DNA of 64,000 bases from Thalassotalea nanhaiensis (lineage in GTDB: Bacteria > Pseudomonadota > Gammaproteobacteria > Enterobacterales > Alteromonadaceae). The stretch spans positions 62,001 to 126,000 of the forward strand of contig NZ_CP134146.1 in assembly GCF_031583575.1 (NCBI RefSeq), given 5' to 3'. The notes beneath the pieces were generated by a model. The model was not told the DNA's origin, made no database searches, and saw nothing but the letters and a program-made list of their open reading frames with translations. Positions 5,455 to 8,504 of the stretch are shown here, piece after piece; the stretch's first letter is position 1; each line of letters starts with the position of its first letter. A program made the position numbers and the translations under genes.

Positions 5455-5793
5455 ATGGATGCTAATCAAATAGAGATTTTGATTAAATCAATTAAAGCTG
5501 AGTTACCATTTACACCACCATTTCAATACAAAAAATTTGATGAAGATCCATTCCCATTATCATTCTCTGAAAATGTAAACTACTTAGGTGATTGGTCAGC
5601 TCATTGCCTGCATCCTTTTACTAAAATAGAGTGGCTTTGCGTTCGTCCACAATATTTAAAAAGTGTTGGGCGTTTAGTTCCACCTAAAGTAGTTTCCTGT
5701 GAGGCTGAGTTTATTAATTTATTGCAAAACTTAAAGGTTCCATTTCAGTCCCAAGGTGATACTATTTTCATTTATTGTAATAAAAACAACTAA
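5455..5793 (+). CDS. Hypothetical soluble cassette protein
   Basis: 112 aa from ATG 5455, with GGAG at 5439-5442 a little far upstream. An in-frame TTG at 5437 is the alternative and adds six residues. No membrane span or signal. It has aromatic-rich patches (WSAHCLHPFTKIEWLC) and a C-terminal 'GDTIFIYCNKNN'. No family is recognised. Confidence 0.7.
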   Translation: MDANQIEILIKSIKAELPFTPPFQYKKFDEDPFPLSFSENVNYLGDWSAHCLHPFTKIEWLCVRPQYLKSVGRLVPPKVVSCEAEFINLLQNLKVPFQSQGDTIFIYCNKNN

Positions 5794-5888
5794 CAAGCCA
5801 ATCAAGCGGGACTAAAAACAGTTTGCTCGGTTTCGCTTCGCTACACATTTTAGCAAACAATTTTTAGCCCCTTATTGGGGCGTTATAT
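5788..5888 (+). repeat. attC site 13
   Basis: R'' aactaac 5788-5794, T1 arms, R' gttatat 5882-5888. Confidence 0.93.
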
Positions 5889-6126
5889 GGTACCACTAAG
5901 TCAAAGTAATAATTAGGTGTTTTAAGCAAGTTGTATTGCCTTATTCGCCGCGTTGAATTCTTATATTTAAACTAGCTTGGTTATTTAATTTTAAATTAAT
6001 TTACTGTTTATAAAACTGAATTCGTAGTGTGTGTTGTAGTGGTACTCGATTATAAATTCTTGCCTTGTTGTAAATGTTAAGTTGCTGTAAATTAATACTA
6101 AAGTTGTGAGTCATCACTCATATAAC
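5883..6126 (+). other. Cassette without sense ORF (copy A)
   Basis: A complete cassette bounded by GTTATAT and its complement ATATAAC, with no sense-strand ORF of useful length. It is homologous along its length to the cassette at 7811-8050. GTACCACTA at 5890-5898 pairs with TAGTGGTAC at 6037-6045. Conserved blocks include CGTTGAATTCT, ATTATAAATTCT and CTTGTTGTAAA. A 37-codon antisense ORF (6001-6114) is conserved in the other copy. It may encode that peptide, a structured RNA, or carry a promoter; ATTATAAAT at 6049-6057 is -10-like but has no clear -35. Confidence 0.8.
6001..6114 (-). CDS. Candidate antisense small protein (copy A)
   Basis: 37 aa on the - strand, opposite to array polarity, starting MTHNFSINLQQLN and ending IQFYKQ. 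The homologous cassette encodes MVTDNFIVNLQHLN...IQFYKQYKV; 24 of 37 aligned residues are identical by eye and several codon differences are silent (AAT/AAC, CAG/CAA, TAT/TAC). The start lies 6 bases from R'', so any ribosome site would sit in attC DNA, and no clear Shine-Dalgarno is seen. Coding status is therefore uncertain. No family is recognised. Confidence 0.38.
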   Translation of the reverse strand: MTHNFSINLQQLNIYNKARIYNRVPLQHTLRIQFYKQ

Positions 6127-6217
6127 AAGGCAATCAATCGGACAAAAAACAGTTGGCTTTGTTCGTGCCTCACAAATTATAGCCAACTTTTTTTTGCCGT
6201 TTATCGCGGCGTTAAAT
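6120..6217 (+). repeat. attC site 14
   Basis: R'' atataac 6120-6126, arms GTTGGCTTTG / AGCCAAC, R' gttaaat 6211-6217. Confidence 0.92.
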
Positions 6218-6231
6218 TACTAAGGAAAGTT

Positions 6232-6684
6232 ATGTATATCTGGAAAGTCTCCCCATTAATTCAAGAACTAAAATCAGAAGGTTTATCTCAAAAAGAGCAA
6301 TTTAAGTATTTTCTTACATATTCAATATTAATGGTATTTGCCACAGACCCATTACTTTCTTTTGGTTACGAGTATGTTGTATACGATGCACTAAATACTC
6401 TTATCGTCACTACCGTAACTATATTGGGTATAGTTTATTGTTATAAAGTGAATGAGTCTGTTGATGGAAAAGATTTCATTCTGAGGCTTATGACTTTAGG
6501 TTTGCCTATTATGATCCGTTTTTTGGTCGTGGTTATCGCTATTACATTTGTTTATTATTTTTTTATAGATTCTAGTGATTCTGAGTTGATTACTACTCAG
6601 CCGATTGATGTTTTATTTTCAGCGATTTTCATGATTGGATATTATTATTATTTTGCTAAAAAGTTAAAGGCATTTGCGAGTTAG
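6232..6684 (+). CDS. Multi-pass membrane cassette protein
   Basis: 150 aa from ATG 6232, with AAGGAAA upstream; the open frame further upstream is attC. Four hydrophobic spans (residues about 27-45, 52-70, 85-108, 125-142). A hydrophilic N-terminus of about 25 residues has two Lys/Glu-rich helices. No family is recognised. Confidence 0.75.
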   Translation: MYIWKVSPLIQELKSEGLSQKEQFKYFLTYSILMVFATDPLLSFGYEYVVYDALNTLIVTTVTILGIVYCYKVNESVDGKDFILRLMTLGLPIMIRFLVVVIAITFVYYFFIDSSDSELITTQPIDVLFSAIFMIGYYYYFAKKLKAFAS

Positions 6685-6686
6685 TA

Positions 6687-6786
6687 ACTTAACAAGCCTC
6701 TTAAGCAGGACAAATAAAGCTTGGCTTTTGTCACTGCGTGCCAGATTTTAGCCAAGCATTATTAGCCTCTTAGTGGGGCGTTATGT
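6687..6786 (+). repeat. attC site 15
   Basis: R'' acttaac 6687-6693, T3 arms, R' gttatgt 6780-6786; closely matches attC site 6. Confidence 0.93.
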
Positions 6787-6801
6787 TTTACGGAGATATT
6801 G

Positions 6802-7134
6802 GTGAAAAGTTTACTCAAAAGTATTCAATATGGAATGTTAGATTTCATCGAAGGAGATGATGAGCCCGATTATACATCTGAAGATGTTAGTGCTTGTATT
6901 ACTCTACTTTTAGAGTTCATGTCTGTAGTTGAATCTGAATCACAAACAATAGATAGCGCAAGAGAACACGTTAAGAATTTAGTTCTTTCACTGAATGAAC
7001 TAAATGAAAAATGTGGTGAATGCTTGATAGAAACAGACCAACGAGAAGAGATTTGTGAGTTTATATTCAAAGTTGTTGCCAACGCTAATATAGAGGTTTC
7101 TGGAGATATTACAGAAGAGTGGCGTGACTGGTAA
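6802..7134 (+). CDS. Acidic helical cassette protein
   Basis: 110 aa from GTG 6802; CGGAGA at 6791-6796 supports it, and an adjacent TTG at 6799 is the alternative. Strongly acidic and helical, without signal or membrane span. Two Cys lie in 'NEKCGECLIE'. No family is recognised. The - strand frames here are shadows. Cassette ends GTTATGTTTTAC / GTAAAACATAAC match over 12 bp. Confidence 0.7.
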   Translation: MKSLLKSIQYGMLDFIEGDDEPDYTSEDVSACITLLLEFMSVVESESQTIDSAREHVKNLVLSLNELNEKCGECLIETDQREEICEFIFKVVANANIEVSGDITEEWRDW

Positions 7135-7135
7135 A

Positions 7136-7240
7136 ACATAACAAGCCATTACAGTAACGGGACTGCTAACAGCTTGCTCAGTTCCGCTTCGCTTCACAAT
7201 TTTAGCAAGCTATTATCAGCCCCTGAATGGGGCGTTATAT
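7136..7240 (+). repeat. attC site 16
   Basis: R'' acataac 7136-7142, arms GCTTGCTCAG / AGCAAGC, R' gttatat 7234-7240. Confidence 0.92.
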
Positions 7241-7280
7241 TGCTAAAAAAGTACAGTGTGTTTTCAGCATAGGAGAGCAA

Positions 7281-7718
7281 ATGAAAAAGGAACTTACAGA
7301 TATATTTGAAGTTGACTCAGTTCTAAAGACTCTCGTTCTTTGCATTCTCACAATAGGTTCGTATTTAATATATAAACTTTACCGTTTTTCGAACCAAATC
7401 AACGAGCATACAGAGCTTAAAATATCTAAATATTTTATCCTTACTACTGTAATTTTATTTGGCATTTCATTAGCTAGTTTAATTTATGGCTTAGTTAATC
7501 TTCACGATTTATCCATTTTTAAAAGCTCAATTGTTATTCATTTGGTTTCAAGTGTTTTTGATGTAACGTGGATAGTTATGGTCCGCAATCGTATAAACCA
7601 AATTTCAGGTTCAAGTAAAGGTGACATACTTTGGTTAAATCCATTTATTACATCATTTTTTCATGTAATCTATATGCAACATAAAATTAATCAAAGCTTG
7701 GTTAAAGCCGCAATATAA
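7281..7718 (+). CDS. DUF4234-like membrane protein
   Basis: 145 aa from ATG 7281 with AGGAGAG just upstream. The N-terminus 'FEVDSVLKTLVLCILTIGSY' followed by LIYKLYRFSNQIN, and the C-terminal 'LNPFITSFFHVIYMQHKIN', resemble the paired 'iv..iL.iiTcGiY.iyW.y....iN' repeats of DUF4234 membrane proteins. About four spans. The assignment is by pattern. Role unknown. Confidence 0.72.
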   Translation: MKKELTDIFEVDSVLKTLVLCILTIGSYLIYKLYRFSNQINEHTELKISKYFILTTVILFGISLASLIYGLVNLHDLSIFKSSIVIHLVSSVFDVTWIVMVRNRINQISGSSKGDILWLNPFITSFFHVIYMQHKINQSLVKAAI

Positions 7719-7816
7719 CAAGCAATTAAAGCGGGACTTTTTACAGTTTGCTCGGTTCCGCTTCGCTACACAATTTTAGCAAACTATTAAAAAGCCCCTT
7801 AATGTGGGCGTTATAC
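7713..7816 (+). repeat. attC site 17
   Basis: R'' atataac 7713-7719, T1 arms, R' gttatac 7810-7816. Confidence 0.93.
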
Positions 7817-8050
7817 GGCAACACTAAATCAAAGAATACATGGAAGTATTAAGTAAATATCCTTGTCTTAATCTCGGCGTTGAATTCTAAAGCTAAACAC
7901 ATTCGGCTGTTAATTTTTACACCTTATACTGTTTGTAAAACTGAATGCCAAATCTAGGTTGTAGTGTTGCACCATTATAAATTCTAGTCTTGTTGTAAAC
8001 GTTAAGGTGTTGTAAGTTAACTATAAAGTTGTCTGTCACCATCGTATAAC
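7811..8050 (+). other. Cassette without sense ORF (copy B)
   Basis: Second member of the ORF-less pair, bounded by GTTATAC and GTATAAC. GCAACACTA at 7818-7826 pairs with TAGTGTTGC at 7962-7970, the same place as in copy A, with two base pairs changed on both sides. An antisense ORF (7917-8042) is homologous to that of copy A. The attC sites attached to A and B are different types, so the similarity is in the cassette body, not copied attC DNA. Confidence 0.8.
7917..8042 (-). CDS. Candidate antisense small protein (copy B)
   Basis: 41 aa on the - strand, starting MVTDNFIVNLQHLN and ending IQFYKQYKV. It is homologous to the ORF at 6001-6114, with conserved RIYN and IQFYKQ blocks. As there, the start abuts the attC R'' and no ribosome site is evident. 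It could be a real peptide expressed against the array, or apparent coding in a conserved structured element. Confidence 0.38.
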   Translation of the reverse strand: MVTDNFIVNLQHLNVYNKTRIYNGATLQPRFGIQFYKQYKV

Positions 8051-8145
8051 AAGGCAATTAATCAGGACAAATAACGCTGTCATGGCTTATGCAAAATACG
8101 CAAAAGCAATGCCAGCATAATTCGCCTATTATTGAGGCGTTAAAT
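8044..8145 (+). repeat. attC site 18 (subtype T5)
   Basis: R'' gtataac 8044-8050, middle GCTGTCATGGCTTATGCAAA, R' gttaaat 8139-8145. Same divergent layout as attC site 9. Confidence 0.88.
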
Positions 8146-8150
8146 TGAAC

Positions 8151-8504
8151 ATGAGAATATTTATAAGCATCACATTTGGAGTTTTTTTAGGAATAGGCCT
8201 TTCATGGTTTTATTTCAAGAATTGGGTGGAACCAGAATATGATAAAACGGCTATTTCATGGGTTACAGCAGAACAAGGTTTTATCTATCAATATTTGTTC
8301 ACAATTTTAAATTCTGATGAAAGTGAAATTAAACCTAAATTGCAGCGTTATTTGTGTAAGTCTATTTCATCTAATATGAATTGGAAAAAAGGTGAGCTTA
8401 ATGGTCATGCTATGGCTATGGGAGTTAAGCCTACAAATAATATGTTGCAGGAGTATTTGGTCATAAATAATATTGAGCTAGAAGATTGTGTTAGTTCAAT
8501 TTAA
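8151..8504 (+). CDS. Membrane-anchored cassette protein
   Basis: 117 aa from ATG 8151; a TTG two codons upstream overlaps R'. One N-terminal span (residues about 3-23, ending WFYFKNW) acts as anchor or uncleaved signal, followed by a soluble helical domain of about 90 residues with two Cys. No family is recognised. Cassette ends match over 12 bp (GTTAAATTGAAC / GTTCAATTTAAC). Confidence 0.72.
   Translation: MRIFISITFGVFLGIGLSWFYFKNWVEPEYDKTAISWVTAEQGFIYQYLFTILNSDESEIKPKLQRYLCKSISSNMNWKKGELNGHAMAMGVKPTNNMLQEYLVINNIELEDCVSSI

Follow-up and report, generated by a model that had tools for sequence, protein, structure and literature searches.

A family of gene-less integron cassettes in Thalassotalea with a retained stem, a possible structured RNA cargo

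What might an integron cassette do that holds no gene and keeps a base-paired stem while the letters of that stem change? The question is raised by two cassettes, c1 and c2, in a 64,000-nucleotide stretch of the Thalassotalea nanhaiensis genome (the window; positions 62001-126000 of contig C1, NZ_CP134146.1, in a 4.31-Mb single-contig genome; G000:C1:62001-126000), together with a homologue, c3, from another genome of the genus. The stem kept despite sequence change suggests, though it does not prove, that the cassette exerts its effect through a folded RNA and not by way of a protein. We tentatively view c1-c3 as one gene-less cassette family whose product would be a structured sense RNA, either part of the array transcript or cut from it, a reading that we hold to be plausible while falling short of probable.

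An integron integrase gene, intI (C1:54185-55132; TIGR02249, 452.6 bits), lies about 7 kb ahead of the window, and a cassette array detected with an attC finder fills the first part of the window; the finder is rough, and its calls past about 16 kb were judged spurious. The two cassettes lie in this array beside the integrase gene, c1 about 12.7 kb and c2 about 14.7 kb from intI, each with its own attC in which R'' and R' are complementary, and GTTRRRY-type core sites bound both bodies.

5883-6126, plus strand: body of the gene-less cassette c1, taken as far as the R'' box of its attC, placed by homology, core sites and attC.
6120-6217, plus strand: attC of c1, with an R'' box, ATATAAC, that complements GTTATAT at the cassette start.
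7811-8050, plus strand: body of the gene-less cassette c2, taken as far as the R'' box of its attC, placed by homology and core sites.
8044-8145, plus strand: attC of c2, placed by the attC finder; by eye it is like the attC of c3.

A preliminary description of this DNA had called the two cassettes homologous throughout, with different attC types at their ends and no sense open reading frame (ORF), and each of these points is borne out. The bodies align by blastn over their whole length at 73% identity, the attC sites diverge beyond the left arm, and the longest ORFs inside the bodies of c1, c2 and c3 have 17, 25 and 26 codons in the sense direction and 38, 41 and 50 in the antisense direction. 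None of the three therefore has an ORF of more than 210 bp (70 codons), the limit for a gene-less cassette. Mechanically called ORFs cross the cassette borders, such as 7748-7852 and 6106-6684, both on the plus strand; the second starts in the final bases of c1 and belongs to the frame of the next cassette.

The third member, c3, is found at G007:C1:2343-2585 (NZ_JQDZ01000001.1) in Thalassotalea sp. ND16A, where it also sits in a cassette array, as read by eye. In the three-row alignment, agreement at ungapped columns is 178/240 for c1-c2, 177/242 for c1-c3 and 169/240 for c2-c3. By blastn, c1 aligns to c2 and c3 over the full body, and c2 and c3 are joined only from position 67 onward. Variable columns of the alignment lie in clusters (p 0.0022 by permutation of runs).

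The evidence for a folded product lies above all in P1, a stem of 9 bp that links the 5' end of the cassette with its middle (alignment columns 8-16/155-163) and whose arms in the window are the following.

5890-5898, plus strand: 5' arm of P1 in c1, GTACCACTA.
6037-6045, plus strand: 3' arm of P1 in c1, TAGTGGTAC.
7818-7826, plus strand: 5' arm of P1 in c2, GCAACACTA.
7962-7970, plus strand: 3' arm of P1 in c2, TAGTGTTGC.

The claim that a 9-bp repeat was kept despite sequence change holds, since GTACCACTA/TAGTGGTAC and GCAACACTA/TAGTGTTGC are both present and differ by two double changes. Across the three members 27/27 cells are paired and 2/9 pairs show a double change, both of them in c2, the letters of c3 being those of c1. 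Breakage of the stem in further members was looked for in c3, where P1 is intact. A lone 9-bp inverted repeat is common, occurring in 16-23% of Markov-matched sequences, and c1 contains a further inverted repeat of 10 bp; the unusual part of P1 is its retention in three homologues, not one 9-bp repeat. Among 1000 pattern-preserving shuffles, which keep the conserved or variable state of each column, a single one yielded any Watson-Crick stem of at least 9 bp in all three rows, and none yielded a stem of at least 7 bp with two double changes. If the partner is shifted by 1-3 columns, paired cells fall from 97% to 26-46% and zero double changes are seen (R box included).

Two Watson-Crick stems of at least 6 bp are common to all three rows, P1 and a stem at columns 1-7/238-244. 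A cassette opens with the last six bases of a GTTRRRY core site, which the R'' box of the attC complements; the stem at columns 1-7/238-244 is this attC R''/R' complementarity, and it carries two double changes, as expected because it is a functional site. The GTTRRRY core site is named in the accessible part of PMC8876359. With G-U pairs allowed, an extra 8-bp stem with one double change (columns 154-161/200-207) is present in all three members and competes for the 3' arm of P1; we read it as weak because its pairs in c1 are mostly G-U. Beside the attC R box, P1 is the one helix with two double changes.

Some of the folding results speak for a structured body. The alifold energy of columns 8-170, without the R box, lies below that of all 200 shuffles (z -3.6 sense, -3.9 antisense). 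In array context, meaning the upstream attC, the body and its own attC, the mean pair probability of P1 in sense RNA is 0.96 for c1, 0.97 for c2 and 0.69 for c3, and in antisense RNA 0.001, 0.43 and 0.71, respectively. P1 is thus predicted to favor the sense strand in c1 and c2, with no strand preference in c3. Folded as the body alone, c1 and c3 form P1 on both strands. With DNA parameters in context, top-strand values are 0.002, 0.93 and 0.45 for c1, c2 and c3, and bottom-strand values 0.0, 0.94 and 0.81.

A second conserved block, P3 (alignment A5, columns 179-191), is complementary to the attC left arm of the same cassette.

6060-6072, plus strand: P3 segment of c1, TTGCCTTGTTGTA, complementary to its own attC left arm at 6121-6133 with one G-U pair.
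6121-6133, plus strand: attC left arm of c1, the partner of P3, TATAACAAGGCAA.
7987-7997, plus strand: P3 segment of c2, GTCTTGTTGTA, complementary to its own attC left arm at 8045-8055 with two G-U pairs.
8045-8055, plus strand: attC left arm of c2, the partner of P3, TATAACAAGGC.

With G-U pairs allowed the complementarity spans 13 nucleotides in c1 and 11 in both c2 and c3. The run of 10 pairs common to the three rows is matched in 3/1000 shuffles, and the observed lengths are reached in 1/500 (c1), 11/500 (c2) and 11/500 (c3) of the per-sequence Markov controls. In context, P3 has pair probabilities of 0.96, 0.97 and 0.63 in sense RNA and 0.76, 0.23 and 0.24 in antisense RNA (c1, c2, c3), so that the models favor the sense strand in all three members; one position, C-G in c1 and U-G in c2 and c3, pairs only on the sense strand. 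The same complementarity was compared in 25 window cassettes taken from the rough attC finder, after some spurious rows had been dropped and four coordinates set by hand. Fourteen other window cassettes reach 5-8 nucleotides, against 13 in c1 and 11 in c2. Nine of the 25, set aside because their anchor was not a TAACAA site, reach 5-11; four of these nine match the core site itself, and one other reaches 10 nucleotides. In silico, blocking P3 lifts the basal attC helix of c1 from 0.11 to 0.45, with scarcely any change in c2 and c3. The idea that P3 opens the attC hairpin to derepress downstream translation was rejected, as the basal effect is largely confined to c1 and the upper hairpin forms regardless.

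What could such an RNA look like? In the array transcript, an upstream attC hairpin would be followed by one base and then by P1, which would close a domain of about 156 nucleotides, and the conserved 3' block P3 could next pair with the attC left arm of that cassette. If the cassette is transcribed, the RNA may act as a small RNA in trans, or affect neighboring cassettes in cis. P1 is most simply explained by base pairing that matters, most likely in sense RNA within the array transcript.

A good deal weighs against this interpretation. The family is one of three sequences, and the two P1 double changes are possibly one event, which is conceivable because both lie in one member, c2, two bases apart; c3 adds retention of P1 and no new change. 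The covariation of P1 and P3 together is matched by 49/500 letter shuffles, a coarse control on three rows, and the stronger figures (6-32/500 letter shuffles) include the attC R box. An inner candidate helix (alignment A3, columns 75-80/138-143) shows no covariation and has one pair broken in two members. P3 likewise has zero double changes, with three end pairs each broken in one member, and it is graded as a lead only because it was noticed post hoc, after the folds had been viewed. The alifold energy of columns 8-237 reaches only z -1.86 (8/200 shuffles equally low), sequences folded singly have unremarkable energies (z 0.33 and -0.89), and the alifold covariation term without the R box (columns 8-170) is exceeded by 19/200 sense and 12/200 antisense shuffles. 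In context c3 forms P1 to a like degree on either strand, and P1 is missing from its single lowest-energy sense structure; the sense RNA of the c2 body alone scarcely forms P1 (0.04, against 0.66 for antisense), and in c1 P1 is lost from both strands when the cassette in context is folded as DNA. With the loop randomized, P1 still forms at 0.5 or above in 30/40 (c1), 33/40 (c2) and 18/40 (c3) cases; because it survives this treatment, its formation follows from the arms alone and is not evidence by itself. Rfam 15 gives 0 matches at the gathering score in the window. Below threshold, two snoRNA families match c1 (best E 0.011, at 29.3 bits where the threshold is 50) and none matches c2, and the c1 matches were taken as chance. 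In favor of the structured RNA proposed in the preliminary description stand the third homologue that keeps P1, the shuffles that were beaten and the folds in context; against it, the covariation is thin.

How widespread is the family? ND16A is the sole addition from all searches, which covered overlapping genome samples: DNA searches with c1 (15 genus and 295 family genomes) and with c2 (15 genus and 394 order genomes), a sequence profile, R1 (295 family, 394 order and 262 class genomes, with stricter filters for the large sets), and an antisense-peptide profile (290 family genomes). No further convincing member was found in the family, order and class samples by DNA, R1 profile or peptide profile, nor in plasmids, phages and viral contigs by DNA searches, with a peptide alignment added for viral contigs. 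A degenerate 24-base pattern hit 13 stretches in genome contigs, of which only that of ND16A is genuine by blastn and nhmmer, and five stretches in viral contigs, of which none is genuine. A 24-bit R1 match in genome G233 was rejected, since it lies antisense within a gene, presumably rsmC, and relatives of that gene in five own-genus genomes reach at most 4 bits against 13.6. Five other R1 matches outside the genus (20-21 bits) were put down, uninspected, to chance given the number of genomes, as were, also uninspected, short DNA matches in four genomes of the family (24-37 bases, E 1.8e-5 to 9.5e-4). Two antisense-peptide matches with stops (G079 and G111) have no R1 match, and the place in L051 falls between ORFs. 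No description of the c1-c3 family was found in the literature searched, mostly judged by title, so that the family may stand as undescribed; gene-less integron cassettes as a class are already described in the portion of PMC11014356 consulted.

The ND16A array offers some observations of its own. By eye, the attC of c2 (8044-8145) and that of c3 (L028, about 2350-2245, minus strand) are alike and that of c1 is of a different type, a pattern suggestive of attC exchange between otherwise homologous cassettes. Contig L028 of ND16A also holds, on the minus strand, four copies (5879-5640, 5232-4993, 2892-2653 and 975-749) of a further cassette that looks gene-less, with a body of roughly 217 nucleotides and 97-100% identity to the query copy; one copy lies directly upstream of c3, and the window gives no match to this cassette at E 1e-3. 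At the contig end (L028, about 1-120), short repeats of the type CGTGAACA..CATTCCGG were noticed by eye past the last cassette.

Might the cassettes instead supply a promoter for their neighbors, the conserved blocks being promoter or regulator sites and P1 incidental? This reading has the strongest experimental prior, since most of the 30 gene-less Vibrio cassettes tested showed sense promoter activity, and some antisense, according to the available text of PMC11014356. An internal promoter would be useful at the distances of c1 and c2 from intI, and c2 alone has an antisense sigma-70-like match (10/12 at 7913-7884) and a high antisense score of 9.5. Against it, a scan with generally known sigma-70 weights found no site common to c1-c3 above shuffles (129/200 and 186/200 shuffles reach the observed best on the two strands), promoter-like sites number 6 in the region 5780-8200, fewer than the 10.9 averaged over shuffles, and the P1 double changes are left unexplained. 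The objection from scanning is tempered by the statement, in the part of PMC11014356 seen, that cassette promoters are unidentifiable in silico. We regard a promoter as a rather unlikely explanation, and one that could coexist with the structured RNA.

A non-functional, perhaps decayed, cassette kept by chance appears rather unlikely. Quasi-palindrome correction is a template switch that copies one arm onto the other, and one such event could account for the apparent P1 covariation, as c2 holds both changed pairs at a distance of two bases; the small number of members found agrees with this view. Decayed genes do occur in gene-less cassettes, if in few of them, in the accessible text of PMC11014356. 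Chance retention fits less well with the intact P1 of c3 and with the clustering of variable columns, and a decayed gene finds no echo in 16 six-frame fragments of at least 20 amino acids, which match the masked window and the ND16A contig only at E > 0.1, or in the three antisense peptides, none of which has a Pfam match.

The cassette could also be viewed as an RNA or single-strand element acting on recombination sites and modulating excision or expression at both borders, because P1 would fold directly beside the upstream core site and P3 would mask the left arm of the cassette's own attC. We consider this improbable.

Last among the functional readings, and improbable in our view, is a micro-protein of about 38-50 residues read antisense from the 3' half of the cassette. 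The ORFs concerned, for which coding is doubtful, are the following.

6001-6117, minus strand: antisense ORF of c1, 38 codons from GTG or 37 from ATG.
7917-8042, minus strand: antisense ORF of c2, 41 codons from ATG or 46 from an upstream TTG.

The antisense ORFs of 37 and 41 codons in the preliminary description do exist, and the c2 peptide shares 63% identity with that of c1 and 49% with that of c3. The first 22 codons, an ungapped block next to attC, are free of stops in the three members and show, over sequence pairs, 10 synonymous and 19 non-synonymous codon differences; compared with relocated substitutions, the replacements are conservative (BLOSUM p 0.001) with an excess of synonymous changes (p 0.007). 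This block is one of 18 frame-block combinations in the coding test, and the sense frame exactly opposite scores p 0.002 yet holds a conserved stop. In c3 a one-base insertion after about codon 24 puts the rest of the ORF in another frame, so the frame is not kept over the whole ORF in all members, and in the following block none of the antisense frames gives a coding signal (p about 0.5 or more). The start lies at attC, with no Shine-Dalgarno sequence seen by eye, the chance probability of the ORF length is 0.08 (c1), 0.11 (c2) and 0.05 (c3), and neither a plasmid match for the c3 peptide nor a relative of the peptide alignment in viral contigs was found. The proposal of an antisense micro-protein is thus weak, frameshifted members being among the observations that its proposer had named as telling against it. 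As a separate observation, a sense peptide-like stretch at window 5913-5960, with equivalents in c2 and c3, lies ahead of a conserved GTTGAATTC; its peptides (LGVLSKLYCLIRRVEF in c1, MEVLSKYPCLNLGVEF in c2 and LRSLGKLFCNHRSVEF in c3) are alike by eye and within the null (p 0.23).

Terminal inverted repeats of a mobile element are disfavored by homology over the whole cassette and by the presence of only two copies in the genome.

How do c1-c3 compare with known systems? The R''/R' complementarity of attC accounts for the paired, covarying cassette ends (TTATAT/ATATAAC and equivalents) and leaves P1 unexplained, as the 5' arm of P1, which begins one base within the core site, has its partner in the middle part of the body. 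A small RNA on a cassette has a precedent in sRNA-Xcc1 of Xanthomonas campestris, reportedly described by Chen et al. in 2011. As cited in the excerpted text of PMC8876359, it is a non-coding RNA carried on an integron cassette, as proposed here for c1-c3; the likeness is one of description, drawn to a putative c1-c3 transcript. Cassettes without a recognizable gene make up 6-49% of Vibrio arrays (as cited in the available part of PMC11014356). The gene-less promoter cassettes of Vibrio (Blanco et al. 2024, same partial text) are similar to c1-c3 in having an attC, no ORF of more than 70 codons and a place in a chromosomal integron array. They differ in their length of 491-666 bp, against about 330 bp in the c1-c3 family, and in having been tested for promoter activity, whereas c1-c3 retain a covarying stem and show no sigma-70 site in common; 'secondary structure' is a term absent from the portion of that text consulted. 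Beyond a role as promoters, the c1-c3 family would provide a testable case of structured RNA as cassette cargo, a cargo that, if the interaction of P3 with attC is true, would act on the array itself.

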